A DNA stretch of 45,017 nt from Rhodobiaceae bacterium (GTDB taxonomy: Bacteria; Pseudomonadota; Alphaproteobacteria; Puniceispirillales; Puniceispirillaceae), in assembly GCA_018624035.1 (NCBI GenBank), contig JAAZUU010000003.1, forward strand, positions 1 to 45,017, written 5' to 3'. This document shows, in pieces, positions 5,942 to 20,662 of the stretch. Under the pieces are notes generated by a model, which had not been told where the DNA came from, did no database searches, and was given only the letters and a program-made list of their open reading frames with translations. Made by a program: the position numbers and the translations under genes. Position 1 is the stretch's first letter; each line of letters begins with the position of its first letter.

Positions 5942-6766
5942 TCAGCTGAGGTTCCGCATGACCTCGGCGGCCATCGCTATCAGCGCCGGTTTCGTTGCGC
6001 GCAGGATCTGGCCGCGATCGAACATATCCGGATCATCGGCAAGGGTCTGACGCAGCGACCTGCCAAATGTCTGTCGCAGCTCGGTGCCGACATTGAACTT
6101 GCAGACCGCCGTATTCAGCGCCAGATGGCGGCGCATCTCGACCGGCACGCCCGACGCGCCATGGATCACCAGCGGACAGTCGGTGACAGCCTCGATCTCG
6201 GCGAGACAGGCAAGGTCGATCTCGGCCATCGCCTCGGTCTGCAGATGCACATTGCCAACGGAAATGGCCAGCGCGTCACACCCGCTCTCGGCGGCGAGCC
6301 GTCCCGCCTCCCCGGCGTCAGTCATCTGTGACGCCGCGCCTGCATCATAGCCAACAAAACCGATCTCGGCCTCGACGGACACGTCATGCCGGTGCGCCAA
6401 TTCGACAACCGTGCGGCTGGCAGCGATATTGTCATCGACAGGCAGCGCCGAGCCGTCATACATCACCGAGGTGAAACCGGCATCGATTCCGGCGCGGCAT
6501 TCATCGATTGTTTTCGCGTGGTCAATATGCACCACCACCGGCACCGATGCCGCCTCACCAAGGGTCCGGAACATCAGGCCTGAAATCCTCACCGGCAGCG
6601 TTTCACGGAATTTCGGGCCGGCCTGGAGGATGATCGGGCAGCCGACCTCTTCGGCGGCAGCGACATAGGCCTCAGCATCCTCCCAGCCGAGAACGACAGC
6701 GCCCATCACCGCGCGGCCAGCGGCGTGCACCGGGGCCAGAACATCTGTCAGGCTGGCGACAGGCAT
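5942..6766 (-). CDS. iolJ: Class II aldolase, IolJ-type (2-deoxy-5-keto-gluconate-6-phosphate aldolase)
   Basis: A 274-residue zinc-dependent class II aldolase of the FbaA/GatY/IolJ family. The metal and substrate motifs are present: HIDHAKTIDECRAGIDAGF (zinc histidine, catalytic region), MYDGSALP, EAEIGFVG, the second zinc site in SVGNVH, and LVIHGASGVP with the third. In the inositol pathway IolJ splits 2-deoxy-5-keto-D-gluconate 6-phosphate into dihydroxyacetone phosphate and malonic semialdehyde. It ends the long - strand inositol operon, ten bases after the IolB paralogue, with a strong GAGGGAGGG site before its ATG. From sequence alone it could also be a fructose- or tagatose-bisphosphate aldolase; the operon argues for IolJ. 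Confidence 0.82.
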   Translation of the reverse strand: MPVASLTDVLAPVHAAGRAVMGAVVLGWEDAEAYVAAAEEVGCPIILQAGPKFRETLPVRISGLMFRTLGEAASVPVVVHIDHAKTIDECRAGIDAGFTSVMYDGSALPVDDNIAASRTVVELAHRHDVSVEAEIGFVGYDAGAASQMTDAGEAGRLAAESGCDALAISVGNVHLQTEAMAEIDLACLAEIEAVTDCPLVIHGASGVPVEMRRHLALNTAVCKFNVGTELRQTFGRSLRQTLADDPDMFDRGQILRATKPALIAMAAEVMRNLS

Positions 6767-6776
6767 GCGCCCTCCC

Positions 6777-7613
6777 TCACTTGAATTTCGCGATCATGTC
6801 CTTGATGCCCGGGATCGTCTCAATCTGATAGGCATGCGTTGGCTGGAAATACTGCACCAGCGATCGCTGCGTCAGCCCGCCAAGGATGGTGAAGTAATAC
6901 ATCTCATATCCCGGCAGCACACAGCAGGGGTGATAGCCATTATCGATGCAGATCGTCGACCCGTCCACGATGTGATAGGCGTCGCCCGGCGCGCCGTCCT
7001 CGCGCTGCAGCATCTGCAGCCCCGACCCCCAATTCGGCCTGAAGCGAAAATTATAGGTCTCATCATGCCGCGTCTCGTCGGGCAGCCGGTTGGTGTCATG
7101 CTTGTGGCTAGGGAACCCCGACCAGCCGCCAGCCCCGACGGTGAACAGCTCGGAGACAAGCAGGCGGCCGACCTTGTCATGCTGTTTCTGGCCAAGGATG
7201 TGCTTGATCTTGCGATGCGTCTTGGTGTCGTCGGACCCGTACTGCACAAGGTCGGGCTCTCGCACATCGAACGGCTCCAGCACCTTGTCGTATTTCGCGC
7301 CGGCGATGAAGGTTTCGGTCGCCTCCGAGGTGCAGACAATCGTCACCTTCGCGCCAACCGGCACATAGACGCCCTCCGGCTCACCATCCCAGACATCCGC
7401 GCCGCGATTGCCAAGCTTGGTGAAACTGACCCCCTCGATCTCGACATCGACGGTGCCGGTCGCCGGCACGATGCAGGTCTCATAGCCGGGCACCTGATAT
7501 TCAAAAGCCTGGCCCTTTGTCAGCTTGACGATGTTGAAATAGTTCAGGGGAACGGTGCCATTCTCGGCATCGACGATCGGCCTGTTCTTATTGTCATAAG
7601 GGGCGATATGCAT
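6777..7613 (-). CDS. IolB-like isomerase, divergent paralogue
   Basis: A 278-residue bicupin-type protein of the 5-deoxy-glucuronate isomerase (IolB/KduI) fold. It keeps the metal-site pattern FPSHKHDTNRLPDETRHDE and the distal DNGYHPCCVLPGYEMYYF, which line up with PPHKHDTDNLPEES...EET and RGYHPVGAPHGYESYYL in the canonical IolB of the same operon. Elsewhere the two proteins differ strongly, so this is an old duplication or a separate import, not a recent copy. It lies between the second kinase and iolJ. It may act on a different deoxy-uronate or on another inositol isomer's ring-opened product; I cannot tell which. Confidence 0.75.
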   Translation of the reverse strand: MHIAPYDNKNRPIVDAENGTVPLNYFNIVKLTKGQAFEYQVPGYETCIVPATGTVDVEIEGVSFTKLGNRGADVWDGEPEGVYVPVGAKVTIVCTSEATETFIAGAKYDKVLEPFDVREPDLVQYGSDDTKTHRKIKHILGQKQHDKVGRLLVSELFTVGAGGWSGFPSHKHDTNRLPDETRHDETYNFRFRPNWGSGLQMLQREDGAPGDAYHIVDGSTICIDNGYHPCCVLPGYEMYYFTILGGLTQRSLVQYFQPTHAYQIETIPGIKDMIAKFK

Positions 7614-7641
7614 TCGTCCGTCTCCGTTCGGTCGTCATCCA

Positions 7642-8622
7642 CTATATGCCACTGATCGTGCGGGATGACATGAATTCGTCAATTTCGGCACCATTCGGCA
7701 TCGCGGCGGCACAGCCGCGACGCGACACGGCCAGCGCCGCGCCGGCGGCACCGCGCCGGACGGCATCCTCGATCCCAGCTCCATCGGCAAGCGCGGCGGT
7801 GATCGTGCCAAGGAAGGCATCACCGGACCCGAAGGGTTTCAGAGCCTCGACACGGAAAATTCCGATATGGGTGGCGGCATCTGCGGTCAGTATATCACAT
7901 CCGCCCTCGCCCATCTTGTAGAGCGTCAGTGCGCCGTTCGCGGCAAGTTCCTTGGCAAGGCCGCGGCCCCTGCCGCCGGATATGATGTCGAATTCCTCGT
8001 CATTCGCCACCGGCATGTCCACCTCACCGGCCATCGCCGACAGCACCCGCCGCGCCTCGTCAAGGCTTGCCCAGGCCTGCGGACGGTAATCAATATCCAG
8101 AATGACCGGACAGGTGGCGGCGCGCGCCCGATCCACCAGACGCATACAAGCGGAGCGTGACGGCTCGCGCGACAGCGCGGTGCCAGTGATGATGATGACG
8201 CCAACAGTATCCATATCCACCGCTTCGGCATGGTCCGGGGTGATCGCCAGATCCGCCGCGTCATTCCGGTAGATCACCACATCAGGGGACTCGGTCGTGC
8301 TTTCAGCCAACGCCAGCGAGGTACGCTGAAGGCCGGTGGTCACATGACAATGTCGGGTATCAACACCATAGCCGGCCAGCGAACGGGTGACGAATCGGCC
8401 CACCCCGTCATCCGAGACGGCCGCCATCAGCATGACTGGACATTTCTGCTTGGCGATCGTCACCGCGATATTGCCGGAGGACCCACCGACATCCGTGACA
8501 AGGCTCTCGGCATCCTCGATCTGTGTACCGTCCGGCACCGGATAGATATCCATGCCGGCGCGCCCGACGACAAGGGCGGTGCGGCCGGAAAGTCTTTCAG
8601 AGATTCGCTGTGCGACCGTCAT
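7642..8622 (-). CDS. PfkB-family carbohydrate kinase, second IolC-like
   Basis: A 326-residue ribokinase-fold kinase. PfkB signature 1 is represented by GGSSGNIAVTIAKQ (about 46-59) and signature 2 by FGSGDAFLG with the catalytic base Asp268. FGSGD replaces the usual TGAGD, but the base is kept. Features shared with IolC include the DVGGSSGNIAV start, GVDTRHCHVTTGLQRTSLA, VIYRNDAADLAI and LDIDYRPQAW, so the substrate is probably a 2-deoxy-5-keto-gluconate-like acid. Unlike the first IolC of this operon it has no DUF2090 domain. It begins 13 bases after iolE and precedes the IolB paralogue. Confidence 0.8.
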   Translation of the reverse strand: MTVAQRISERLSGRTALVVGRAGMDIYPVPDGTQIEDAESLVTDVGGSSGNIAVTIAKQKCPVMLMAAVSDDGVGRFVTRSLAGYGVDTRHCHVTTGLQRTSLALAESTTESPDVVIYRNDAADLAITPDHAEAVDMDTVGVIIITGTALSREPSRSACMRLVDRARAATCPVILDIDYRPQAWASLDEARRVLSAMAGEVDMPVANDEEFDIISGGRGRGLAKELAANGALTLYKMGEGGCDILTADAATHIGIFRVEALKPFGSGDAFLGTITAALADGAGIEDAVRRGAAGAALAVSRRGCAAAMPNGAEIDEFMSSRTISGI

Positions 8623-8635
8623 TCAGATTCCGCGT

Positions 8636-9532
8636 TCAGGCAAGGCTGTAACCAACATCATGAAGCGCCTGATGAAGCTTATTATAGCCCATCTTCGCAT
8701 ATTCCAGCGGGTTCGCCCTGGCCGGGTCCTGCTCGGCCTCGATGATGACCCAGCCTTCATAACCAACATCGAACAGCCGCCTCATGATGTCGTCATAATC
8801 GATCATGCCGTCGCCGGGAACGGTGAACACACCCTTGAGAACGCAATCGAGGAATGATTCGGCGTCACGGTCAATGCCGGCCAGGACATCCGCCCGGATA
8901 TCCTTGGTGTGGAAATGGTTGATCCGCTTGCCGTGTTTGGCGATCACCGCCGCATTGTCACCGCCAGCGAAGACAAGGTGACCGGTATCGAGAAGCAGGC
9001 CCACCGCCTCGCCGGTAGCGTTCATCAGCGCGTCAAGCTCGGCCTCTGTCTCGACGGCGGTGCCCATATGGTGGTGGAAGGTCAGCGGCACACCCTCGCC
9101 AGCGCAATGCTCGGCCAGCGCGGTCAGCCGCCTGCCATAGGTGGCGACATCGAATTGATCCAGCCTCGGCCGGCTCGAGAGCGGCTTTTCCTGCCGGTTC
9201 TGCACCGTGTCGAAAGTCTCGCCATAGACGATAACCGACGCGCCAACCGCCTTAAACAGCGCCAGCTGGTCGGCAATCCGCTCAAGTTCGGAGTCCAGAT
9301 CATTGTTGATCAGCGTGCCGCTATACCATCCCGACACCAGCACCAGATCATGTTTCTTCAGCACCGATGACAGCGCATCGGCTTCGTTGGGGAATTTGCC
9401 GCCGGTCTCGGTCCCGACAAAGCCGGCCTCGCGGGTTTCGGACAGGCACACCTCCAGCGGCGTGTCGCCGCCAAGCTGCGGCAAATCATCATTCGACCAG
9501 GAAATCGGGGACATCCCGAGACGCAGTTTCAT
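8636..9532 (-). CDS. iolE: Inosose dehydratase IolE
   Basis: A 298-residue TIM-barrel protein of the xylose-isomerase-like (AP endonuclease 2) superfamily, the usual IolE length. It dehydrates 2-keto-myo-inositol to 3D-trihydroxy-cyclohexane-1,2-dione. Visible motifs are MKLRLGMSPISWSND at the start, the metal-site strand TFHHHMGT, LLLDTGHLVFAGGD, NHFHTKDIR and VIIEAEQDPA near the C-terminus. The open frame runs 22 codons further upstream, but AAGGA seven bases before the ATG at 9532 and the fit to family length fix the start there. It sits between iolB and the second kinase. Confidence 0.9.
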   Translation of the reverse strand: MKLRLGMSPISWSNDDLPQLGGDTPLEVCLSETREAGFVGTETGGKFPNEADALSSVLKKHDLVLVSGWYSGTLINNDLDSELERIADQLALFKAVGASVIVYGETFDTVQNRQEKPLSSRPRLDQFDVATYGRRLTALAEHCAGEGVPLTFHHHMGTAVETEAELDALMNATGEAVGLLLDTGHLVFAGGDNAAVIAKHGKRINHFHTKDIRADVLAGIDRDAESFLDCVLKGVFTVPGDGMIDYDDIMRRLFDVGYEGWVIIEAEQDPARANPLEYAKMGYNKLHQALHDVGYSLA

Positions 9533-9539
9533 ATTCAGG

Positions 9540-9544
9540 TCCTT
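9540..9544 (-). promoter_or_regulatory. Shine-Dalgarno sequence that sets the iolE start
   Basis: AAGGA on the - strand lies seven bases before the ATG at 9532. The longer in-frame start at 9598 has no equivalent site. Confidence 0.5.
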
Positions 9545-9569
9545 TTCACAGAAAACGCAATGAGCGCGA

Positions 9570-9650
9570 TCAGGCCAGGCGGCCCTTGGCATTTCCATCG
9601 TCGGCGTCGGCGTCGGCTTGCTGGTCCCAGTCCTGTGCGGCCTGTGTCAT
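9570..9650 (-). CDS. Possible 26-codon ORF coupled to iolB
   Basis: The ATG overlaps the iolB stop codon (ATGA at 9650-9647), and the frame runs 26 codons to a TGA at 9570. The predicted peptide is acidic, with an Ala-Asp repeat (ADADADD) in its middle and a basic end (KGRLA). The underlying DNA carries a tandem GTCGGC repeat on the + strand. No family is recognised. It may be a real coupled small peptide, or chance reading of the iolB-iolE spacer; the ATGA overlap is the only positive sign. Confidence 0.25.
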   Translation of the reverse strand: MTQAAQDWDQQADADADDGNAKGRLA

Positions 9651-10444
9651 GTCAGCATCCATTCATGCGCCGGATCGTTCTTGAATTTCCATACCCGCTT
9701 CGGCCCGGCCATGACATTGAGATAATAGCTCTCATAGCCATGCGGCGCGCCAACCGGGTGATAGCCGCGCGGCACCATCACCACCGTCCGGTCCTCGGCG
9801 GCCATGGTTTCGTCCAGCTCGCGGCTGTCATCATAGACCCGATGCAGGACATAGCCCTGCGGCGGGTTCACACGGTGATAATAGGTCTCCTCGAGATAGG
9901 ATTCCTCAGGCAGATTGTCGGTATCATGCTTGTGCGGCGGATAGGATGACCAGTTGCCGGCCGGCGTGATCACCTCGACCACCAACAGGCTGTCCGCCGG
10001 TTCGGTTTCCGGCAGAATGTTGCAGACATGCCGCGTGTTGGAGCCGGTGCCACGTGTTTCCAGCGGCATGCTGTCAGCCCCGATCAGGCGCGGCGGCAGC
10101 GCGCCACCAGTCCCGGGCGCGCGGCAGACAGCCAGCTCGGCATCACTGCCGGCCTCGACCTGCCAGCCTGTCCGCATCGGGATGTAGACGGCCTGCGGCG
10201 CGGCGCGGTCAAACACGCTGACCCGACCGGTCAGCATGCCGGTATCAAGATCACCGGCCCTGATCCGCGCGTCACCGGTCAGCAGCACGAGACAGATCTC
10301 GTCCTCCGTGCCCTCGACATCGAGTGTTTGCCCGGCTTTCAGATCATGAAGCCCGAAGCCGACATGGGACCAACCCGCAGAGGCCGGCGTGATATCATGA
10401 ACAGCGCCACCATCAAGGTTTGGCCTGACAAGCAGTTTCGACAT
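9647..10444 (-). CDS. iolB: 5-deoxy-glucuronate isomerase IolB
   Basis: A 265-residue bicupin isomerase that converts 5-deoxy-D-glucuronate to 2-deoxy-5-keto-D-gluconate in inositol catabolism. The metal-binding block PPHKHDTDNLPEESYLEE (around residue 172) and the RGYHPVGAPHGYESYYLNV block (around 225) are typical of IolB, and the length matches the family. A GGGAG site precedes the ATG, 22 bases after iolD. It is the more canonical of two IolB-type proteins in this operon. Confidence 0.9.
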   Translation of the reverse strand: MSKLLVRPNLDGGAVHDITPASAGWSHVGFGLHDLKAGQTLDVEGTEDEICLVLLTGDARIRAGDLDTGMLTGRVSVFDRAAPQAVYIPMRTGWQVEAGSDAELAVCRAPGTGGALPPRLIGADSMPLETRGTGSNTRHVCNILPETEPADSLLVVEVITPAGNWSSYPPHKHDTDNLPEESYLEETYYHRVNPPQGYVLHRVYDDSRELDETMAAEDRTVVMVPRGYHPVGAPHGYESYYLNVMAGPKRVWKFKNDPAHEWMLT

Positions 10445-10466
10445 ATTCCGTCTCCCGTCCCGTCAA

Positions 10467-12308
10467 TCAGCGAAGCTGGCGCTTCTTGTTCTGGAGCCAG
10501 CCATCATAGGCGGCGGTCACCTCGGCGCGTTCCGATACCGCCGGGACGCCAACCTCCCACCAGGTGCCGCCGGCCGCGGTCGACGGGCCGGGGTCGGTAT
10601 CGATGACAATCACATCGACACCCTTGCGCGCCACCGCCTCGGCGGTCATTGCCTCCAGCTCGGCGATCGATCCCGCCTTCTGTGCGCGCGCGCCCATCGA
10701 GGCGGCATGCGCCACGAAATCGATATCGGGAAGCACCTCATGCGTGGAATCGGCAAGCAGATTGTTGAAAGCCGCGCCACCGGTCGCCGCCTGTAGCCTG
10801 TTGATACAGCCAAAGCCGCGATTGTCGGTGATGATCAGCGTCATCGAGCGCCCCATCATCACCGCCGTCGCCAACTCGGCATTCAGCATCAGATAGGACC
10901 CGTCACCCGCGAACACGACATTCGGCCGGTCAGGCGCCGCCATGTCGACGCCGATACCGGCGGCCACCTCATATCCCATGCAGGAAAATCCGTATTCCAT
11001 GTGATAGCCGTCAACCTCGCCAACCTGCCACAGCTTGTGAAGCTCGCCGGGCATCGAGCCGGCAGCGCCAACGGCGATCACCTCCGGCGGGCAGGCCCGG
11101 TTGACCGCGCCGATCACCTCGCTGTCGGATGGCAGGCCGTTGCTGTCTGCCGGGGCATCGCACACCGCGGCCACCTCCGTCATCCAGCTATCCCAGGCGG
11201 CGGCGATTTCGGCCCGGTAGGCATCATCCGTACGGTAGCCGCCAAGCCCGGCGGCAAGCGCCTCGATGCCGGTGTGGGCATCCGCCATCAGCGGCATCGC
11301 CCCATGTTTGACAAGATCATGCGCCTGCACATTAAGGGCAATCACCTGCCCCCTGATCAGCCCGTTCGAGCCGGTGGTGAAATCCTGCAGCCGGCTGCCG
11401 ACAGACAGCACAACATCAGCGGTTTCGGCCAGCGCATTGGCGGCGGACGCGCCGGTCACGCCAAGCGAGCCGACATACATCCCATCCGCCTCGACAAGGC
11501 TGGATTTGCCAGCCTGGGTGGACGCCACCGGAATGCCGGATTTCGCGGCGAAATCGGCAAGCGCCCGCGAGGCACCGGAATAGCGGACCCCGCCGCCGGC
11601 AATGATCATCGGTCGTTTGGCGGCTTTCAGCGCCGCGATGGCGCGGGACAGCTCACCCTCGTCCGGGTGGATGCGGCGCACCGACCAGAGGCGCGGCTTG
11701 AAGAAGCTTTCCGGATAGTCCCATGCCTCGGCCTGAACGTCCTGGCACAGGCCAAGTGTGACCGGCCCACAATCGGCCGGGTCGGTCAGCACCGACATCG
11801 CCCTGGGAAGTGCCTGAAGAAGCTGTTCCGGACGGGTGATCCGATCAAAATAGCGCGAGATCGGCCGAAGACAGTCATTGGCCGAGACAAGACCGTCGGC
11901 AAAGCTTTCCACCTGTTGCAGCACCGGGTCGGGCGCGCGGCTGGCGAACACATCGCCGGGCAGCAGCAACACCGGCAGCCTGTTCACATGCGCCAGCGCC
12001 GCCGCTGTCGCCAGATTGGTCGCGCCGGGGCCGATCGAGGTTGTCACCGCCATCATCCGGCGACGCTGCATCTGCTTGGCATAGGCGATGGCGATATGCG
12101 CCATACCCTGTTCATTATGGCCGCGAAAGATTGGCAGCTCATCGCGAATGCCATGCAGCGCCTCGCCAAGACCGGCCACATTGCCATGCCCGAAAATCGC
12201 CCAGACACCGGCAAACGCCGGGGCGGCGGTGCCGTCAAGCTGTTCGATGCTCTGCGCCGCCATCCAACGGGTCAGCGCCTGTGACATAGTCAGTCGAACC
12301 GTTGCCAT
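10467..12308 (-). CDS. iolD: Trihydroxycyclohexane-1,2-dione hydrolase IolD
   Basis: A 613-residue thiamine-diphosphate enzyme that opens the ring of 3D-trihydroxycyclohexane-1,2-dione to give 5-deoxy-glucuronate. The cofactor-activating glutamate is Glu66 in FRGHNEQGMAH. The middle domain carries PMIIAGGGVRYSGA, and the diphosphate/Mg motif begins at GDGSYLMLNAEL and ends at ITDNRGFG. Its N-terminal RLTMSQALTRW is characteristic of IolD. The start at 12308 follows AGGAGAGG, and the 10 extra codons of the longer open frame have no such site. It lies 16 bases after iolC. Confidence 0.93.
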   Translation of the reverse strand: MATVRLTMSQALTRWMAAQSIEQLDGTAAPAFAGVWAIFGHGNVAGLGEALHGIRDELPIFRGHNEQGMAHIAIAYAKQMQRRRMMAVTTSIGPGATNLATAAALAHVNRLPVLLLPGDVFASRAPDPVLQQVESFADGLVSANDCLRPISRYFDRITRPEQLLQALPRAMSVLTDPADCGPVTLGLCQDVQAEAWDYPESFFKPRLWSVRRIHPDEGELSRAIAALKAAKRPMIIAGGGVRYSGASRALADFAAKSGIPVASTQAGKSSLVEADGMYVGSLGVTGASAANALAETADVVLSVGSRLQDFTTGSNGLIRGQVIALNVQAHDLVKHGAMPLMADAHTGIEALAAGLGGYRTDDAYRAEIAAAWDSWMTEVAAVCDAPADSNGLPSDSEVIGAVNRACPPEVIAVGAAGSMPGELHKLWQVGEVDGYHMEYGFSCMGYEVAAGIGVDMAAPDRPNVVFAGDGSYLMLNAELATAVMMGRSMTLIITDNRGFGCINRLQAATGGAAFNNLLADSTHEVLPDIDFVAHAASMGARAQKAGSIAELEAMTAEAVARKGVDVIVIDTDPGPSTAAGGTWWEVGVPAVSERAEVTAAYDGWLQNKKRQLR

Positions 12309-12324
12309 ATCCCTCTCCTGTCGA

Positions 12325-14223
12325 TCAGCCAGCCGCATCCCAGGCGGCGATTAGTCTTCTGTAAACGGTGCTCATCATGCTGGTGGCCGCGGCATCATCG
12401 ATGTCACCGGCAAACCATTGCCGCGCCGCGTCACTGAAAATCGTCCGGCCAATGGCAAACCCGCGGACAAGCTTCTCACCACGCGCCATCTCCAAAACCC
12501 CGGTCAATTCATCATCCGGCATCTCCTTGCCAAGAACAATGATGCCCTGGATGTGCGGATCATGCGCCCGCGCGATATCGCCGGCCTTCGTCCAGAACGC
12601 CCGGTCGGCGACCGGCTCCAGCTTCCACCAGTCGGGCATGATACCAAGGTCATAGATGCGTTTCATCAGCGTATGGATTTGCGCCGGGTCAGCAGGTCTG
12701 CCGGCACGGCCATTGATGATCTCGAGAAGGAATTCATGGCCGGTCCGGCGACAGGCATCGGCGAGACTGATGATGGTCTGCTCGTGATGCGCGATCAGAT
12801 CCGCAGGATCGTCGGTGCGAAGCGGCGCCAACACCTTCACACAATGGTTCACCGGCCATTCGGCAAGCCGGCTGCCAAGGTCCGGCCCCTCCTCAAGCTC
12901 CAGCGGAAAGAGGCCGGATTCCTCGATCGGGCGGCCAATCCAGACATCATGGTCCGATGCCGCATGAAGTGCTGTCCGGCCAAGCCGGTCATCGACCAGA
13001 ATGCCAAGACCGTCACGCGTGCCGACCAGCGCGGTGACGGCATCGAGGGCCAACGTCTTGAAATGATCAATATCCGCATCCGACCGGCCATGCGCCGCCG
13101 CCATCTCGGTGAACTGGATCCGGTGATCAAAGGCGAAAGCCAGCAATTCATCATGCCGACGCCGGCGCGTCGTCGACCAGTGGATCTGTTCCAGAACCGG
13201 ATCCTTGCGAAGAGCGAAATGCTCGCTTCCGGTCTCGATCATGTGCCGAAGTTCGATCTGCGAGGGATAGGACGGGGCGCAGCCATGGCGCGATACCGCA
13301 AGCGCGCCACAGATATTGGCATAGAGAGCGCAATCCGCCGGCGCGGCGTCGCGCAGCCAGCCGGACAGGAAGCCGGACATGAACCCGTCACCGGCGCCAA
13401 GGACATTGAACACCTCTATCTCACGCACCGGCGAGCTGACCCCGTTATCCCAGCCGCTGATCGCGCCCTCGAAGACAACGCATCCAAGCGCGCCGCGCTT
13501 GCAGACAAGTGTCGCGTCGGTGATCGCGCGGGCGGCTTGCAGGGCGGTGATGGTGTCGGTGCTGCCACCGGCGATATGCCATTCCTCCTCGGTGCCGACA
13601 ATCAGATCGCAATGCGGTAACACGGTCTGCAGATGCGTGGTGACACGCGCGCTTTCGGCGAACCGGCTCTCGCCGTCGCCATGCCCGCCAAGCGCCCACA
13701 GGTTCGGGCGATAATCGATATCGAACGCGACCTTCCGACCGGCCCGGCGGGCCAGTTTCATCGCGGCGAAACTGGCACCGGCCACGCGGTCGGTGCTGAA
13801 ATGCGTTCCGGTGACAAGAACCGCCTTTGCCGAGGCGATGAAGTCCGGGTCGATATCCTCTTCTCCGATCGCCATATCGGCGCAATCCTCACGATAGAAG
13901 ATCAGCGGAAACTGTTCATTGTCGCGGATGCCAAGGATGACCAGCGCCGTCAGACGGTCCGGATCGGTTTTCACATGGCTGATATCAACGCCTTCACGGG
14001 TCAGCTGCTCGCGAATGAACCGGCCCATATGTTCATCACCAACGCCGGTGATCACCGCCGATTTCAGACCCAGGCGCGCGCAGCCGATGCTGATATTGGT
14101 CGGGCTGCCGCCGATATATTTGGAAAAGCTGGACATGTCTTCCAGACGGCCACCAACCTGCCCGCCATACAGATCGACAGACGAACGGCCGATGCAGATC
14201 ACATCAAGCGTAGGCTCAGCCAT
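12325..14223 (-). CDS. iolC: 5-dehydro-2-deoxygluconokinase IolC fused to a DUF2090 aldolase-like domain
   Basis: A 632-residue two-domain protein. Residues 1-335 are a PfkB kinase with GGSPTNISIG (38-47), DIDYRPNLW and the catalytic GAGDG (276-280, base Asp279). This domain phosphorylates 2-deoxy-5-keto-gluconate. Residues from about 345 to 630 form a DUF2090 domain with AFAFDHRIQF, VDDRLG, HCVKVL, EIINGR, DWWKLEP and KLVRGFAIGRTIF, the pattern of a class I aldolase-like barrel often fused to IolC in proteobacteria. The fused domain may carry out the aldol cleavage that IolJ does elsewhere, yet an IolJ also exists in this operon. The start codon overlaps the end of the regulator gene by eight bases. 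Confidence 0.92.
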   Translation of the reverse strand: MAEPTLDVICIGRSSVDLYGGQVGGRLEDMSSFSKYIGGSPTNISIGCARLGLKSAVITGVGDEHMGRFIREQLTREGVDISHVKTDPDRLTALVILGIRDNEQFPLIFYREDCADMAIGEEDIDPDFIASAKAVLVTGTHFSTDRVAGASFAAMKLARRAGRKVAFDIDYRPNLWALGGHGDGESRFAESARVTTHLQTVLPHCDLIVGTEEEWHIAGGSTDTITALQAARAITDATLVCKRGALGCVVFEGAISGWDNGVSSPVREIEVFNVLGAGDGFMSGFLSGWLRDAAPADCALYANICGALAVSRHGCAPSYPSQIELRHMIETGSEHFALRKDPVLEQIHWSTTRRRRHDELLAFAFDHRIQFTEMAAAHGRSDADIDHFKTLALDAVTALVGTRDGLGILVDDRLGRTALHAASDHDVWIGRPIEESGLFPLELEEGPDLGSRLAEWPVNHCVKVLAPLRTDDPADLIAHHEQTIISLADACRRTGHEFLLEIINGRAGRPADPAQIHTLMKRIYDLGIMPDWWKLEPVADRAFWTKAGDIARAHDPHIQGIIVLGKEMPDDELTGVLEMARGEKLVRGFAIGRTIFSDAARQWFAGDIDDAAATSMMSTVYRRLIAAWDAAG

Positions 14224-15058
14224 TCTCCGGCCCTTTCTCTCGCTTCAAGCCGGCTTCAATGGCCAGGTACTGGGTCAGGTTCATGGTGGCGCAGAGCGAG
14301 CGGAACCCGAAAAGATGCTCCTCGGTGACCAGCAGGGTCGTATCAAGCGCAACCGGGCTGACGGTGGTGTCGGTGATGCTGACGATGGACACACCCATTT
14401 CATGCGCCTGGCGCGCCAGATTGGCCGTCATTTCGCCGTAAGGGGAAAAACTGACCACAAACAGGACATCACGCGGGCCAATCAGCTTCACCTCGCGAAT
14501 GGCCTGCGCCGGAGAGCCGCGAAATTCCTGCGACCTGATGCCAAGCTGCGTCAGAAGATAGCCAAGATAGACCGTGACCGGCTTTGCCCGTCCGCCGGCG
14601 GCAAGCCAGACAGTCTCGGCATCGGCCAGACGTTGCGATGCCTGTTCGAGAATCTCGATCGACACCGTGTTGGAAAGCCGCTTGATTGAATCAACCGCCG
14701 AAATCGACAATGCCTCGAGATGGTCGGCCGGGTTTACGGCCGCCATTTCCGAGAGCCGGCTTCCATATTGCGGCCAGCTGTGGCGAACCTGCTGGCGGAA
14801 CACCGTCTGCATCTGGCTGAATCCGTCAAAGCCCAGCGTCTGGGCAAAGCGGACGAAGGCAGAGGACGCGATATCGGTTTCGGCGGCAAGCTCGGCTAGC
14901 GTTGACAGGGCGATGGCCTCGGGATGGCCAAGTGCGAAATTGCCGATCTCCTGCAACCGTTTCGGCAGGTCGGCATGCTGCTGCTCGATCCGCTCGACAA
15001 GCTGGTCGAGAGTCTCCGGTCTTGTCTCGACCTCAGCGGAGTCCATGGCCACGTCCAT
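14216..15058 (-). CDS. RpiR-family transcriptional regulator, probable IolR
   Basis: A 280-residue RpiR-type regulator: an N-terminal helix-turn-helix (about 20-95, with LSTLAELAAETDIASSAFVRFAQTLGF) and a C-terminal SIS sugar-phosphate-binding domain (about 125-265, with WLAAGGRA, GPRDVLFVVSFSPYG and VSIVSITDT). Proteins of this kind repress inositol operons in rhizobia and release DNA on binding a pathway intermediate. It sits inside the operon between the ATPase and iolC, overlapping iolC, so it is probably autoregulated. A second ATG four codons downstream is an alternative start. Its likely target is the divergent region at 18413-18651. Confidence 0.85.
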   Translation of the reverse strand: MDVAMDSAEVETRPETLDQLVERIEQQHADLPKRLQEIGNFALGHPEAIALSTLAELAAETDIASSAFVRFAQTLGFDGFSQMQTVFRQQVRHSWPQYGSRLSEMAAVNPADHLEALSISAVDSIKRLSNTVSIEILEQASQRLADAETVWLAAGGRAKPVTVYLGYLLTQLGIRSQEFRGSPAQAIREVKLIGPRDVLFVVSFSPYGEMTANLARQAHEMGVSIVSITDTTVSPVALDTTLLVTEEHLFGFRSLCATMNLTQYLAIEAGLKREKGPENG

Positions 15059-15072
15059 TCCGTTCCGATACT

Positions 15073-15861
15073 CTAGACAGCAAGCTCCTTGGCCAGATCA
15101 CCGATTTCGGCACCGCCGGCCATCAAACGCTTGATGTCGTCCCCTTCAAGATCCTTCGACGTGCCTTGCCCGATTACCTCGCCAAGACTGAGGAAGGTGA
15201 ACCGGTCGGCGATCAGACGCGCATGGATCTCGTTATGCGTGATAAGGATGATCGCGATATCGCCAAGCTTCTGAACCTTGCGGATCGTCTTCAGGACTTC
15301 CATCTGCTGCTTCTGGCCAAGCGCCGAGGTCGGTTCGTCCAGGATCAGCACCTTGGCGCCAAAATAGATCGCCCGCGCGATGGCAAGGGTCTGGCGCTGA
15401 CCGCCGGACATGGTGCCAACGGCCTGGTTCGGGTCGGCGACATTGATCCCGATCTTCGCCATCTCACGCGTCGCGATCTCGTCCATTTCAGCCATCTTCA
15501 TCACCCCGAACGGGCCCGGGAAATGGGTGATCTCGCGTCCAAGAAAGAAGTTGCGGGTCACCGAGGTGAGCGCGTTCAGCGCAAGGTCCTGATAGACCGT
15601 GCCAATCCCCGCATCGGTGGCATCACGCGGCGAGGCAAAGGAAACCGGTCTTCCCTCGACCCTGATCTCGCCTGCTGTCGGCTTGAAGACGCCGGACAGA
15701 ATCTTGATCAGGGTCGACTTGCCGGCACCATTGTCACCAAGAAGGGCATGCACCTCGCCTGGGTAGACCTTCAGATCAACCCCATTCAGCGCTGTGAAGG
15801 AGCCGAAGTTCTTGACCAGACCGGTTGTCTCGATGAGCGGTTCTGTTGCGTTGTCAGCCAT
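15073..15861 (-). CDS. Sugar ABC transporter ATP-binding protein, single-domain (FrcA/RbsA-like)
   Basis: A 262-residue ABC ATPase of the carbohydrate-uptake 2 family. Walker A is GDNGAGKST (42-50), the signature is MSGGQRQTLA and Walker B is VLILDEPTSAL, followed by the switch histidine in LITHN. RbsA, XylG and MglA have two ATPase domains; this one has one, as FrcA does, and would act as a homodimer. The start at 15861 lies one base after the permease stop region; 13 further codons in the open frame overlap the permease and are not needed. It powers the importer formed with the next two genes. Confidence 0.88.
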   Translation of the reverse strand: MADNATEPLIETTGLVKNFGSFTALNGVDLKVYPGEVHALLGDNGAGKSTLIKILSGVFKPTAGEIRVEGRPVSFASPRDATDAGIGTVYQDLALNALTSVTRNFFLGREITHFPGPFGVMKMAEMDEIATREMAKIGINVADPNQAVGTMSGGQRQTLAIARAIYFGAKVLILDEPTSALGQKQQMEVLKTIRKVQKLGDIAIILITHNEIHARLIADRFTFLSLGEVIGQGTSKDLEGDDIKRLMAGGAEIGDLAKELAV

Positions 15862-15862
15862 G

Positions 15863-17449
15863 TCAAAGCGTACCCATGATTCGCTTGCGTATGTTTTCAT
15901 TAAGCAGCGCCGAGGCGATGATCACGAGACCAAGGAAGACGCGGTAGAACGACCCGTCGATCCCCGGGATATAGAAGAAGGCTTCCTTCGCGATGCCAAA
16001 GATGAAGGCCCCGACGATAATCCCCATCACCGTGCCGAAACCGCCGGTCATCACGATGCCGCCGATGACGGCCGCGGCGATGGCCTCGAGTTCCTTGAGG
16101 TTGCCCTTCGCGGCATCGGCTGTGTTCACCTCGAACACCTGGCAGGTGGCAAAAATAGTGGCGCAGAAAGCCGAAAAGACAAAAAGCGATACCTTCACCC
16201 TGTCGGTCGGCACACCGTTCGCCTTTGCCGCCTGCAGATTGCCACCGGTGGAGTAGATCCAGTTGCCAGCCTGAGTGCGGCTGAGAACGACGTAGCAAAT
16301 CAACGCCAGGATCAGCCAGATCATGACGCAGGAATACAGCCCCGGCGCGAACTGGTTGCCGAAATTGTTGGTGTTCCAGTCAACCGGAAAATACAGGAAA
16401 TCAAAAATCGGCTCGAGGATGTCGCCACCAAAGAAATTCGCGACGGGCTGAGCTGACGGAATGCTGTCGATATAGGTCCGCACCACATCAAGATCGGTGA
16501 CTGTCCTGGGCGTCACAGGGGTGACAGTGAAGGTCTCGATCTTTTCCCGGATCGTCGCCACCATTGTCTCGTTGCCGGACTCAATGGCGTTTTCCAGTGC
16601 CCGCTCCAGCGGCTTGACACCCTTGGCGGCCATGATTTCGGTCTTCGCGTCAGCGACGCGCTGATAGGTATATGCCAATCGTTCGGTGATGCTGGCGACG
16701 GTATCCGCCGGCACCGTCTGCAGGATCGCCTGCAAATCGGCCTCGGGGAGCGCCTTTGCCGCCTCACGTTCAATTTCGCCATGCCCGGGAACATTGATGA
16801 TGTTCTTCATGTCGGGCAATTCGGTCACCGTCGTCGCGCCCTTGGTCTGGTCGGGACGGTGATTGAAAGCGCGAAGCGATACCTCGGTCAAGCCACGCAG
16901 GAAGAACAGGCCGCCAAGCGTCACGATAAAGGATGGCAGGCCCGAGCGCACGACGATGTAGCCCTGAAGCCAGCCAAAGAACAGCGTGAAACACATCGTG
17001 ATCAGGATCGCGCCGATGGGCGATACATTCTCGATGTAGATCAGCGTGAAAAATTCAATGTGAACCCCGCCCTCGAACGAAATGTACGGGATGACGATAG
17101 CAAATCCCCATCGGAGCACCATCGCCATGCAGGCACCGGCAAAGCCTATCATGGAGCCGATCGACAGGTCGAATTCCCCGGCGATGATCAACAGTCCGGC
17201 GCCAAGCGCGATGATCCCGAGCTGCGCGATCACCCGCAGATTGTTGCGGATGCCAAGGGCGTTGAAGCCCTCGCCGGCAAAGGGATTGAGCGAGAATTCA
17301 CCGGCCGGGATCGAGAAATATCCCAGCATGCCGAAAAGAAGCAGCATCACGCCGATCGGGCCGATTTCCGGCCGTGCCAGAAGCGATTTCAGCCATCCCT
17401 TGGATGCTAGACGGTCGGATTCCTGCCTTGAGCTTGCGGTCTGGTTCAT
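15863..17449 (-). CDS. Sugar ABC transporter permease with a large soluble insertion
   Basis: A permease of the RbsC/BPD_transp_2 family, 528 residues against about 320-350 usual. The family core is clear: ALGAGLLIIAGEFDLSIGSMIG (about 81-102), LPSFIVTLGGLFFLRG (171-186), NLQAAKANGVPTDRVK (404-419, the ATPase-contact loop) and AIAAAVIGGIVMTGGFGTVMG (456-476). Between the helix ending near 195 and the one beginning near 370 lies a hydrophilic stretch of roughly 150 residues, rich in Ala, Glu and Lys and probably helical. The ATG at 17449 is chosen over an upstream in-frame start that would lie in the terminator hairpin. GGA just after the hairpin's U-tract is the only visible ribosome-binding site. 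Confidence 0.86.
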   Translation of the reverse strand: MNQTASSRQESDRLASKGWLKSLLARPEIGPIGVMLLLFGMLGYFSIPAGEFSLNPFAGEGFNALGIRNNLRVIAQLGIIALGAGLLIIAGEFDLSIGSMIGFAGACMAMVLRWGFAIVIPYISFEGGVHIEFFTLIYIENVSPIGAILITMCFTLFFGWLQGYIVVRSGLPSFIVTLGGLFFLRGLTEVSLRAFNHRPDQTKGATTVTELPDMKNIINVPGHGEIEREAAKALPEADLQAILQTVPADTVASITERLAYTYQRVADAKTEIMAAKGVKPLERALENAIESGNETMVATIREKIETFTVTPVTPRTVTDLDVVRTYIDSIPSAQPVANFFGGDILEPIFDFLYFPVDWNTNNFGNQFAPGLYSCVMIWLILALICYVVLSRTQAGNWIYSTGGNLQAAKANGVPTDRVKVSLFVFSAFCATIFATCQVFEVNTADAAKGNLKELEAIAAAVIGGIVMTGGFGTVMGIIVGAFIFGIAKEAFFYIPGIDGSFYRVFLGLVIIASALLNENIRKRIMGTL

Positions 17450-17458
17450 GTCTAAATC

Positions 17459-17491
17459 CAAAAAAGTGGGCAGCACTGATGCTACCCACTT
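17459..17491 (-). terminator. Intra-operon rho-independent terminator/attenuator after the binding-protein gene
   Basis: Reading the - strand: AAGTGGGTAGC, loop ATCAGT, GCTGCCCACTT, then a run of T (six in all, two shared with the stem). The stem is 11 pairs including one G-U. It begins about 15 bases after the binding-protein stop and ends about 10 bases before the permease start. This layout lets most transcripts stop after the abundant binding protein while some read through into permease, ATPase and catabolic genes. Confidence 0.8.
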
Positions 17492-17506
17492 CCATGTTTG
17501 ATGTGA

Positions 17507-18412
17507 TTACCGGTCGACGCCTGCGAGCGAAGCAACCGAAGATGCATTCGACTTGTCAACAAAGCCGGGGCCCGACGGGATGTTTGCACCCGGAAGCAGG
17601 CCAGCGCCATTGTTGTACAGGTGCAGAACGATCACAGGCATGTAGCCCTGCAGACGCTGCTGCTGGTCGATCGTGTACTGAACCTTGCCAGCGTTGATCA
17701 TGTCCATGACCGGCGGGCTGAGGTCGAAGCAGGAGTGGTGAACGGTCATGCCAAGCTCGTCGATGGCCTGCTGCACACCGGCGCAGACATGCGGGCCGAC
17801 AGACAGAACAGCGTCGATGTCAGGGTTTGCCTGAAGACCGGCAGCCGCACGGGTCGGGATGGTGGCCGGATCGTTCGAGCTGTCAACCAGCTTGATCGGA
17901 ACCGACTCGCCATAACCGTTACAACGGTCGTTCAGCGCGGTGTTGTAGGCTTCCTGAATGAAACAGACGCCCTTTGTGGCACCTTCTGCCTTGGCGCGGG
18001 CACCGGCAGCCTGACCAGCCAGGAACTCAGGCTGACCGACGTGCATCAGGGCACCGACATCCTTCGACGACTCGAGACCCGAGTTCATCGTGATGACAGG
18101 AATACCAGCAGCGACGGCATCCTTGATAGCCTGACCCAGAGCGTCCGGATCCGGCAGTGAGACAACCATGCCGTCAGGCTGGGTCGCGGCGGCAGCGGCG
18201 ATCGATTTGGCCATGTCACCCATGTCACCAGACGGGGTGAAGATGTATTCAAAGTCAGCGCCAACAGCACGAGCGGCATCCTCGCCACCCTTCTGCACTA
18301 CAGGCCAGAACGGGTCTTTACCTTCACCATGTGTAACCATCACATAGCGTTCTGCCTGAGCGGCGCCCGAAAACAGCACGGCCGCAGACAGCGCAAGAAG
18401 CAACTTCTTCAT
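17507..18412 (-). CDS. Periplasmic sugar-binding protein (Peripla_BP_4 family)
   Basis: A 301-residue substrate-binding protein for the adjoining ABC importer. Residues 1-20 form a Sec signal peptide (MKKLLLALSAAVLFSGAAQA) with probable cleavage before ERYVM. The mature part follows the ribose/galactose-binding fold: PFWPVVQKGGEDAA, PDGMVVSLPDPDALG, IPVITMNSG, and a C-terminal DLSPPVMDMINAGKVQYTIDQQQ hinge region. The ATG at 18412 follows GGAGGA closely. It heads the - strand inositol operon, so inositol is the most likely ligand, but the xylose isomerase across the divergent promoter leaves a pentose possible. Confidence 0.88.
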   Translation of the reverse strand: MKKLLLALSAAVLFSGAAQAERYVMVTHGEGKDPFWPVVQKGGEDAARAVGADFEYIFTPSGDMGDMAKSIAAAAATQPDGMVVSLPDPDALGQAIKDAVAAGIPVITMNSGLESSKDVGALMHVGQPEFLAGQAAGARAKAEGATKGVCFIQEAYNTALNDRCNGYGESVPIKLVDSSNDPATIPTRAAAGLQANPDIDAVLSVGPHVCAGVQQAIDELGMTVHHSCFDLSPPVMDMINAGKVQYTIDQQQRLQGYMPVIVLHLYNNGAGLLPGANIPSGPGFVDKSNASSVASLAGVDR

Positions 18413-18651
18413 TGTGTCCTCCAAAGGTTTATCGGGGGCACGTTTCGATGCTTGTGAATTGAATGGCCCCCGCGCGCGACTCTAGATAGGTGGGGCCGCT
18501 TGTAAAGGGCCAATTTGGAAAAAATATTTCAAAATCCCGATTTCGTGATTTTTAATCTTGCTTCAACACGTCGCATGCGCGACCAAATCTTTCGTTTAAT
18601 GTCACGCGAAACATCAGGCCGGCATCCTCGGCCATATATCTGGAGATCTTG
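18413..18651. promoter_or_regulatory. Divergent promoter region between the inositol operon and the Idh-SDR-xylA genes
   Basis: These 239 bases separate two start codons facing away from each other and hold no plausible gene. The centre (about 18510-18565) is A/T-rich within a G/C-rich setting. It contains a candidate operator at 18517-18530 and an inverted pair GGCCCC (18465-18470) / GGGGCC (18492-18497) in the leader on the binding-protein side. I could not place convincing -35/-10 pairs for either direction. Confidence 0.65.
18517..18530. promoter_or_regulatory. Candidate IolR operator, GGAA-N6-TTTC
   Basis: The sequence GGAAAAAATATTTC matches in seven of eight fixed positions the GGAA-N6-TTCC element reported for the RpiR-type IolR of Sinorhizobium meliloti (from memory). 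It sits mid-way in the divergent region and the regulator gene is in the downstream operon. Binding is inferred only. Confidence 0.4.
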
Positions 18652-19776
18652 ATGAAGGAAATCGGCATCGGTGTCATCGGCACAGGCTTCATGGGTAAGG
18701 CGCATTCCATTGCATACAGCGCATCTGCCTCGGTTTTCGGGACCGGTCTGAGGCCGCGTCTGGAGATTGTTTGCGACCTCAGTCCGGAGAGGGCATCACA
18801 GCGCGCGACCGACCTTGGATTCAGCAGATATACGGATGACTGGCGGGCGGTCGTCAGTGACCCGGCGGTCGAACTGATTTCGGTCTGCACACCGAATGAT
18901 ACCCATGCCGAGATCTCGATCGCGGCGCTTCAGGCGGGGAAACATGTCTGGTGCGAGAAGCCGATGTCGACGGCTATTGGCGATTCGCAGGCGATGACGG
19001 ATGCTGCTGCTGGCAGCACGGGCAAGACGATCATCGGCTATAATTACACCAAGAACCCGGCTGTCACACATGCCCGCCGCCTGATCGAGAGCGGTGCTAT
19101 CGGGCGTGTGGCGGCATTCTTCTGCCGTTATGACGTCGACAATGAAGCGGACGAAATGCGCCCCTGGTCCTGGCGCATGTCGCGCGACCAGTCGGGAACC
19201 GGCGCGAATGGCGATGTGCTGAGCCATGTCATCAGCGTTGCGCATTACCTGACCGGTTCGACCATCAAACGCGTTGTCGGCGATATCGCGATTATCCACA
19301 AGGAACGCGACGACCCGAAACAGGCCGGCAGCCGCAAGGAGGTCGACAATGACGACATGGTCGCCGCGCTTGTCCAGTTCGAGAATGGCGTTCACGGCCA
19401 TATCGGGGCCAGCCGTGTCACCTGGGGCTATAAATGCGGCCTCCGCTGGGAGGTGCATGGCACCAAGGGAACCATTATTTTTGAACAGGAACGACTGAAC
19501 GAGTTGCGCCTGTTCACCCCGCAGGATGATCCGGCCACCGACGGGTTCCGCACCATTCTGACCGGGCCCCAACACCCGCCCTATGAGGCATTCCTGCCGA
19601 ATGGCGGACACAGCCTTGGCTATATGGATGTGAAGATCTGCGAGCTTCATGAACTTCTCGAGGCCATCAGGGGCGACGGGGGCGTCTGGCCGTCCTTCGC
19701 CGACGGTCTGGTGATCGAAAAAGTGATGGACGCGGTCGACCGGTCCTCGCTCAGCGGCAGCTGGGAAGATGTGTGA
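18652..19776 (+). CDS. Gfo/Idh/MocA-family sugar or inositol dehydrogenase
   Basis: A 374-residue NAD(P)-dependent dehydrogenase. The Rossmann motif GTGFMGKAHS begins at residue 10, the EKP motif places the catalytic lysine at 103 (WCEKPM), and GANGDVLSHVISVAHYL supplies the Asp188/His192 pair. The family oxidises a ring or C1 hydroxyl of sugars or inositols. ATG at 18652 follows GGAG; the upstream TTG in the same frame is less likely. It is the first gene of the + strand set, overlaps the start region of the next open frame, and faces the inositol operon. Substrates such as scyllo- or chiro-inositol, or an aldose, are all possible. Confidence 0.83.
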   Translation: MKEIGIGVIGTGFMGKAHSIAYSASASVFGTGLRPRLEIVCDLSPERASQRATDLGFSRYTDDWRAVVSDPAVELISVCTPNDTHAEISIAALQAGKHVWCEKPMSTAIGDSQAMTDAAAGSTGKTIIGYNYTKNPAVTHARRLIESGAIGRVAAFFCRYDVDNEADEMRPWSWRMSRDQSGTGANGDVLSHVISVAHYLTGSTIKRVVGDIAIIHKERDDPKQAGSRKEVDNDDMVAALVQFENGVHGHIGASRVTWGYKCGLRWEVHGTKGTIIFEQERLNELRLFTPQDDPATDGFRTILTGPQHPPYEAFLPNGGHSLGYMDVKICELHELLEAIRGDGGVWPSFADGLVIEKVMDAVDRSSLSGSWEDV

Positions 19777-19817
19777 TCATCCTTCATAAGGGGACGGATC
19801 GTAAAGGGAGACACTCC

Positions 19818-20600
19818 ATGGTCGATAACAGCACTTCCAGCGTTATCATCTCCGGCGGCACGCAGGGCCTTGGCATGGCAGTCGCCAAAACTCTGATCGC
19901 ACAGGGATGCAAGCGCCTGACGATCACCGGCCGCGACATTGCCAAAGGAGAGGCGGCAGCGGCGCGGCTTGCGACAAATGGCGTCGACTGCCTGTTCGTC
20001 GCCTGTGATGTTGCCAGAATCGAGGACTGCCAGGCTGTCATTGAACAGGTGCTGGCGCATCACGGTTTCGTCAATGGTCTTGTCAACTGCGCCGCCGACA
20101 CCTCGCGTGGTAGTCTGGTGGACACCTCGCCGGAGCTGTGGGCCCGCCATATGGACACCAATCTGCGCGGGCCGTTCCTTCTGATGCAGGGTGTGGTGCG
20201 GCACCTTCTGGAGACCGGCAAGCCGGGCTCCATCGTCAACATCCTGTCGACCTCGGCGCATGTGGGGCAGAGTTTCCTGACTCCCTATGCGACCTCCAAG
20301 GGCGGGCTGCAGACGCTGACCCTGAACACCGCCAATGCCTACCGGGCAAACCTGATCCGCTGCAACGCTGTGGCGCCGGGATGGATGGACACGCCCGGAG
20401 AGGATGTGGTGCAGAAAAAATTTCACGATGCGCCGGATGACTGGCTGGAACAGGCAGAGGCGGGGCTGCCGATGAGCCAGCTTGTCAAAACCGATCAGAT
20501 CGCGCCGCTGATCGCCTATCTTGTCAGCCCGGATTCCGGCATCATCACCGGCGCGGTGATCAATTACGACCAGCAGGTCATCGGCGCGGTTCCCGAATAG
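19818..20600 (+). CDS. Short-chain dehydrogenase/reductase
   Basis: A 260-residue classical SDR. The cofactor motif is GGTQGLG (13-19), the structural motif is NCAA at 90-93, and the catalytic Ser and Tyr-x3-Lys are in ILSTSAHVG and YATSK (Tyr157, Lys161). AAGGGAGA six bases before the ATG at 19818 fixes the start; the open frame continues to a GTG at 19773 that overlaps the previous stop. It probably works on a polyol or keto-sugar made or used by its neighbours. The absence of an acidic residue after the second strand cannot be judged by eye, so the NAD/NADP choice stays open. Confidence 0.85.
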
Positions 20601-20662
20601 GGCAAAGCACCTTTACGCAATGCTGCATGGAAGCAGCCGCAGAAACATGGAGGGCGAGACCA

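Follow-up and report, generated by a model that had tools for sequence, protein, structure and literature searches.

One inositol operon of a Rhodobiaceae bacterium probably encodes two non-orthologous versions of the same lower branch

Introduction

Why would a single inositol operon encode two kinases, two isomerases and two aldolase functions? This question is raised by a 45,017-nucleotide stretch of the genome of a Rhodobiaceae bacterium of the order Puniceispirillales (contig JAAZUU010000003.1 of assembly GCA_018624035.1), which we call the window, meaning the whole stretch that was analyzed. A preliminary description, drawn from the sequence alone, listed seven inositol genes in it, and profile searches confirmed their content and placement on the minus strand: two IolC-type kinases, one of them fused to a DUF2090 aldolase-like domain, two IolB-type isomerases, a free aldolase, IolE and IolD (Table 1). 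The same description took the second kinase, second isomerase and free aldolase, grouped at the 3' end, for a parallel lower branch that serves a different substrate. We call these three genes PfkB2 (IolC2), IolB2 and AldoJ, together the module, and the other set IolB1 and IolC-DUF2090.

Our preferred reading, to which we assign a probability of about two-thirds (0.68), is that the operon combines one upper inositol pathway with a lower branch that is present twice, in two complete versions that are not orthologous. Transport, IolE and IolD would form a single upper pathway feeding both. Version 1 would consist of IolB1 and IolC-DUF2090, with kinase and aldolase fused, and version 2 of IolB2, PfkB2 and AldoJ (IolJ type), as found in roseobacters. 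Either isomerase would convert 5-deoxyglucuronate to 2-deoxy-5-ketogluconate (DKG), either kinase would phosphorylate DKG at C6 (DKGP), and either aldolase would split the product into dihydroxyacetone phosphate (DHAP) and malonate semialdehyde. We infer both these substrates and the sharing of one intermediate by the two sets in this organism. Judged from sequence, the module most likely represents the lower branch in its IolC-IolB-IolJ form, which has joined a classical IolB/IolC-DUF2090 operon at the downstream end.

Results

Family membership and catalytic residues of the two sets

The preliminary description spoke of duplicated kinase and isomerase functions, which holds for their number but not for recent copying. 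PfkB2 is only 27.8% identical to IolC, and IolB2 only 25.5% identical to IolB1; together with a paralogue split that has full support in both trees, these values exclude a recent duplication of the kinase and isomerase.

Despite this distance, the residues expected of working enzymes are in place. IolB2 belongs to the KduI/IolB family, with a PF04962 score (Table 1) far above the gathering score of 23.9. His170, His172, Glu185 and His228 are common to IolB2 and IolB1 at 95% or more (94 IolB2 and 32 IolB1 sequences), and we take them to be the metal-binding set HxH...E...H, presuming the ligand role by analogy with KduI. The PfkB catalytic residues Gly265, Gly267 and Asp268 are likewise common to PfkB2 and IolC at 90% or more (93 and 11 sequences), and the catalytic Asp268 is present in PfkB2. 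In AldoJ, Asp82, His83, His174 and His202 are kept at 97% or more (88 sequences) and align with class II aldolase structures (chains 7nc7 and 3q94); presumably Asp82 is the catalytic aspartate of class II aldolases and the three histidines are zinc ligands. AldoJ scored below the cut-off in all 20 NCBIfam models listed and falls short of the FBA/TBA equivalogs, the best score being 196.1 bits against 343.05. IolC-DUF2090 exceeds the NF047869 cut-off (Table 1), and its DUF2090 residues Lys463 and Glu501 have a spacing of 38, that of Lys493 and Glu531 in the protein described in PMC9007349, the two pairs being matched by spacing rather than by alignment. From these residues, all enzymes of both lower branches look active.

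The module is a conserved unit

To look for the module within the order, we surveyed 136 genomes, counting as IolB2 any match of at least 124 bits to the window protein and separating kinase types by score (fused, at least 382 bits; stand-alone, at most 318 bits) and frame length. IolB2 occurs in 25 of the 136 genomes and a PfkB2-type kinase in 24, every one within those 25; in the single genome with IolB2 and no such kinase (G118), IolB2 lies at a contig end. Both kinase types are present in 13 genomes from six genera, the stand-alone type only in 11, the fused type only in 5 and a fragment in 2. The window's state is therefore not unique.

A scan of GTDB contigs found at least 490 relatives, and locus counts were made on the best 80. 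Most of these are roseobacters; Rhizobiaceae and their relatives, Granulosicoccaceae, Kiloniella and SAR116 are also represented. PfkB2, IolB2 and AldoJ are adjacent, on a single strand and in constant order in 76 of the 80. One of the exceptions begins just ahead of IolB2 (L053), one has a Gfo/Idh gene in the kinase's position and a stand-alone kinase on a different contig of the same genome (L096, genome G161), and two lack a called aldolase (L066) or a called kinase (L087). IolD stands immediately ahead of the module in 46 of the 80 loci and somewhere in the locus in 67, and a classical IolB in 22. The preliminary description had proposed a genome survey for co-occurrence of the three genes, and its grouping of them as a parallel lower branch agrees with both the 76 adjacent loci and the 24 of 24 kinases accompanied by IolB2 in the order. 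The three-gene module is a real, discrete and widely conserved unit, and its interpretation as a complete lower branch (isomerase, kinase and aldolase) is supported.

In some genomes the module is the only lower branch found

We then searched whole genomes for the rest of the pathway. From the 80 loci, 46 were picked by hand, mostly long contigs and isolates, and 45 genomes were searched, with L124 left out. IolD is above its cut-off in all 45, with exactly one match at E 1e-100 in 40. By comparison, classical IolB is above cut-off in 33, fused-type IolC is present in 12 and DUF2090 in 13, two of them in pieces only (G153 and G164). In 33 of the 45 genomes there is no IolC-family kinase besides that of the module at E 1e-40. 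One of these is G153, where one of the DUF2090 pieces lies at a contig start, and a fused kinase may be missing from this genome because of the contig break. The module kinase of the 33 genomes without a fused kinase scores 295.7 to 337 bits with TIGR04382, above the cut-off in 32 (G148, at 295.7 bits, is below it). Eleven of the 45 have neither classical IolB above cut-off nor DUF2090; isolates, by title, among them include Roseobacter insulae, Roseibium sediminis and Labrenzia sp. R4_2, whereas others of the 11 were assembled from metagenomes and are possibly incomplete. Canonical IolE is above cut-off in 22 genomes, and the remaining 23 hold just a relative of 166 to 185 bits.

The gene order on the megaplasmid of Ruegeria sp. 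TM1040 is ABC transporter, LacI, Gfo/Idh, TIM barrel, Gfo/Idh, iolD, iolC, isomerase, class II aldolase and iolG. A replicon of Rhizobium sp. WL3 has the same order minus the final gene. RefSeq names the module orthologues of both strains iolC and 5-deoxy-glucuronate isomerase, adjoining iolD, and we do not count annotation names as evidence of function.

These counts lend no support to the different substrate suggested in the preliminary description, the module holding the sole IolC-family kinase found in 33 of 45 genomes and being the sole lower branch found in 11, with IolD in every one. Nor is it supported by the fitness data of PMC9007349, which assigned an IolJ-like Phaeobacter protein to myo-inositol; this protein probably belongs to the module. 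Since the extra set resembles what seems to be the sole version in many roseobacters, it is more likely to be the same route in a second form than a route for a new substrate.

One IolD and one IolE found in the home genome

The suggestion that IolE and IolD are single was borne out across the whole home genome, a 207-contig draft that is 95.6% complete. It contains one IolD match (E 1e-100), one IolE match (E 1e-20) and two PF04962 proteins, and no second IolD or IolE to feed the module was found elsewhere in this draft. Unless there are further enzymes, both branches would thus depend on one and the same enzyme for ring opening. A candidate IolA (MMSDH) lies on a separate contig (611 bits against a cut-off of 448.5).

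Gene displacement and selection

Trees were built from 27, 27 and 26 of the 100, 97 and 96 sequences collected; their p-values are optimistic because the groups were named after the first quick trees had been viewed. IolB2 of the window's genus falls within a roseobacter clade (100/100), and excluding the genus from that clade gave p = 0.004 in the approximately unbiased (AU) test. The free IolB2 tree splits the genus, and a single clade was not rejected (p-AU 0.085). PfkB2 of the same genus instead falls within a SAR116 clade (100/100; uniting it with the roseobacters, p-AU 0.002). AldoJ is of SAR116 type in the window and in G119 and of roseobacter type in the congeners L051 and L052 (99/98; single genus clade, p-AU 2e-6). 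The IolB1-IolB2 split and the position of the Rhizobium relative described below involve long branches. Parts of the module seem to be exchangeable, with gene-by-gene displacement between lineages. Parts of roseobacter and SAR116 lineages standing side by side argue for one common reaction, and if the isomerase and the aldolase can be swapped singly, they probably handle the same intermediates as in roseobacters.

To assess constraint, we estimated ratios of nonsynonymous to synonymous substitution (dN/dS) by a simple count method, at dS values of at least 0.6. Between the window and G119 they are 0.036 for IolB2, 0.082 for IolB1, 0.126 for PfkB2, 0.081 for IolC and 0.135 for AldoJ. Against L051 and L052, AldoJ reaches 0.32 and 0.47, because these congeners have the other type of aldolase; values for the remaining lower-branch enzymes range from 0.05 to 0.19. 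Both lower-branch sets are under purifying selection, and a division of labor between them is therefore likely.

Discussion

Weighing the alternatives

Several observations weigh against two versions of one and the same lower branch. IolB2 and PfkB2 score below the equivalog models of the enzymes whose reactions we propose for them, IolB2 at 140.8 bits against 205 with TIGR04378 (IolB2 of the 45 other genomes, 139.5 to 151.1 bits) and PfkB2 with TIGR04382 (Table 1). The two IolB clades diverge at conserved columns right after the metal ligand Glu185 (Asn188/Tyr189 and Phe189/His190). Classical IolB occurs without a fused kinase in 22 of the 45 genomes, which plain redundancy fails to explain. 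Strictly redundant sets are not expected to persist, yet both are under purifying selection, which argues against simple redundancy. Finally, IolB2 has a KduI/IolB relative, at about 44% identity, in a Rhizobium cluster without other iol genes.

One alternative, which we regard as unlikely, is that the branches are specialized by stereochemistry. Here the lone IolE and IolD would open several inositol stereoisomers, and the module would take a 5-deoxyuronate with other C3/C4 stereochemistry to the same end products. Isomerase, kinase and aldolase are the enzymes that see C3/C4 stereochemistry, and purifying selection on both sets, the clade-specific residues right behind the IolB2 metal ligand and the 22 genomes with classical IolB beside the module and no fused kinase all fit such a division. 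On the other hand, the module is the only lower branch found in 11 of the 45 genomes. In Anaerostipes, moreover, chiro-inositol reaches the shared inosose by a dehydrogenase and an inosose isomerase, ahead of ring opening (PMC8355322), and this makes a stereoisomer-specific role less likely. In its sharper form, in which one ring-opening enzyme serves two stereochemically distinct branches and IolB2-PfkB2-AldoJ is specific for the 5-deoxyuronate of a non-myo-inositol cyclitol, the idea is rather doubtful. If it were true, marine bacteria would sort cyclitol stereoisomers after ring opening and not before it, as in known routes.

It is very unlikely that the module is not for inositol at all, acting instead on another aldose or uronate (through isomerase, kinase and DHAP-forming aldolase) and sitting in the iol operon by happenstance. 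The Rhizobium relative of IolB2 would suit such a role, as would the copies in three relatives (G064, G070 and G065) that have no other iol gene within about 20 kb around them. The frequent linkage to IolD among the best 80 loci speaks against it, as do the roseobacter type of the window's IolB2 and the order IolE-IolD-Gfo-PfkB2-IolB2-AldoJ in Photobacterium sp. DA100. That the module is a passing redundancy, acquired, due to be lost and without a separate role, is scarcely credible: gene displacement implies mobility and some relatives have one set only, but 13 of the order's 136 genomes, spread over six genera, combine the two kinase types, and both sets are under purifying selection.

Two forms of the lower branch that are named alike in the public records examined are thereby separated, and the signatures given above tell IolB from IolB2. 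In a good share of the marine Alphaproteobacteria examined, no form but the second was found, and the inositol pathway of such genomes would seem incomplete to a search that relied on classical IolB and DUF2090. Genomes with both sets, which include those of the cultured marine strains Kiloniella sp. EL199, Parasedimentitalea denitrificans and Labrenzia sp. OB1, offer a ready test of redundancy versus substrate specialization.

Comparison with known systems

The first half of the window's operon agrees with the IolB plus IolC-DUF2090 route of PMC9007349, including the DUF2090 Lys/Glu spacing; the window differs by adding a second lower branch behind. The same text states that, to its authors' knowledge, the only DKGP aldolases characterized earlier were IolJ of B. 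subtilis and the similar Phaeobacter inhibens PGA1_c07220, an IolJ-like protein assigned as DKGP aldolase for myo-inositol through fitness data. PGA1_c07220 probably belongs to this module; AldoJ was compared with it and with B. subtilis IolJ by gene order. In TM1040 the binding protein stands eight genes from the aldolase, and with locus tags running in tens this would lead in P. inhibens to c07300, the presumed inositol binding protein in the presumed stretch PGA1_c07300 to PGA1_c07320, and so would fit. The P. inhibens IolJ-type route and the TM1040 cluster resemble the module in having a stand-alone IolC, an IolB-family isomerase and a class II aldolase by IolD (as seen in TM1040). They differ in that the window's module trails a classical IolC-DUF2090/IolD/IolB/IolE operon and lacks a separate IolD.

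The B. subtilis operon iolABCDEFGHIJ, also named in PMC8355322, is similar in its separate IolC and class II IolJ, a likeness by gene naming and not by sequence; the window's AldoJ lies below the cut-offs of all 20 aldolase models listed. PMC9430895 reports clusters with multiple core iol genes for 548 species (7.4%), and duplication of core iol genes as such is therefore already published. We found no description of two lower branches in one operon in titles or abstract openings among the matches listed from the open-licence literature.

The sulfo-EMP2 pathway for sulfoquinovose likewise combines an isomerase with a PfkB kinase and a class II aldolase. The module differs in being tied to IolD and in showing no sign of a sulfo-sugar, and a sulfoquinovose substrate was considered and dropped for want of any link.

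Operon layout

The same-strand run extends upstream past IolC through the regulator and transporter to 18424 (Table 1). The gaps between IolE, PfkB2, IolB2 and AldoJ are in turn 13, 28 and 10 bases, and a simple consensus scan found no minus-strand terminator-like sites from 15368 to 5700. The true start of IolE may lie about 66 bases downstream because the profile match starts at residue 24. Chance is no concern for the observed gene content.

Table 1. Genes of the inositol operon and its upstream neighbors in the window, with profile matches
Feature	Coordinates	Strand	Profile match
AldoJ, class II aldolase, proposed IolJ-type DKGP aldolase of the module	5942..6766	-	PF01116 226.8 bits
IolB2, divergent KduI/IolB-family isomerase of the module	6777..7613	-	PF04962 240 bits
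PfkB2 (IolC2), stand-alone IolC-family kinase of the module	7642..8622	-	TIGR04382 266.5 bits (cut-off 300)
IolE, inosose dehydratase	8636..9598	-	TIGR04379 395 bits (cut-off 290)
IolB1, classical 5-deoxy-glucuronate isomerase	9647..10444	-	TIGR04378 330.5 bits (cut-off 205)
IolD, ring-opening thiamine pyrophosphate (TPP) enzyme	10467..12338	-	TIGR04377 860.6 bits (cut-off 715)
IolC-DUF2090 fusion, DKG kinase and DKGP aldolase domain, first lower branch	12325..14223	-	PF00294 and PF09863; NF047869 696.9 bits (cut-off 600)
RpiR-family regulator, adjoining IolC upstream	14216..15058	-	PF01418 and PF01380
Sugar ABC transporter (ATPase, permease, binding protein), upstream of the iol genes	15073..18424	-	PF00005, PF02653, PF13407

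PhyH oxygenases, other relatives and neighboring genes

Where a classical IolB shares a GTDB locus with the module, it adjoins a gene for a PhyH-type 2-oxoglutarate oxygenase of one family in 21 of 22 loci (L061, L069 and L055, for example), the PhyH identity having been verified by Pfam for one member. Six such IolB proteins form a clade in the tree separate from the window type (support 97). PhyH proteins also occur inside iol-type operons of order relatives (L036:6179-7006, and L038:6758-7594 and 8588-9478) and of a Hoeflea metagenome-assembled genome (L083:8020-8991), between IolB and IolE or ahead of IolE or the module kinase. A literature search found no paper joining inositol, PhyH and iolB. 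We considered whether PhyH might open the way to an O-methyl-inositol substrate; it is frequent in relatives and absent from the window's operon genes, and the idea was dropped.

Six other genomes have IolD and IolE above cut-off (G067, G135 and G095, represented by L136, L137 and L138, as well as G068, G069 and G096). Neither an IolB-type match nor, at E 1e-50, a kinase of the IolC family was found in any of the six, which leaves a ring-opening pair with no recognized lower branch. The gene that follows IolE in G067 encodes a PfkB-like protein with 24% identity to IolC.

The Rhizobium relative of IolB2 is encoded on pRL10 of Rhizobium johnstonii 3841 (L133:11980-12813), is 43.6% identical to IolB2 and is annotated as 5-deoxy-glucuronate isomerase. 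Its cluster contains a peptide-type ABC transporter, a glycosyl hydrolase, a TIM barrel protein, a hydroxyacid dehydrogenase and a mandelate racemase. Many Rhizobium plasmids carry similar IolB2 matches (43 to 44% among the matches listed), the neighborhood having been examined in the pRL10 cluster.

Beside the inositol operon, at 18649-21973 of the window, lie divergent genes for a Gfo/Idh protein, an SDR and a xylose isomerase (TIGR02630 above cut-off); the Gfo/Idh protein scores 335.8 bits with the NCBIfam levoglucosan dehydrogenase model, below the cut-off of 650. Within the operon, a 14-pair terminator-like stem lies on the minus strand at 17462-17493, between the binding-protein and permease genes, and would fit an attenuator that favors the binding protein.

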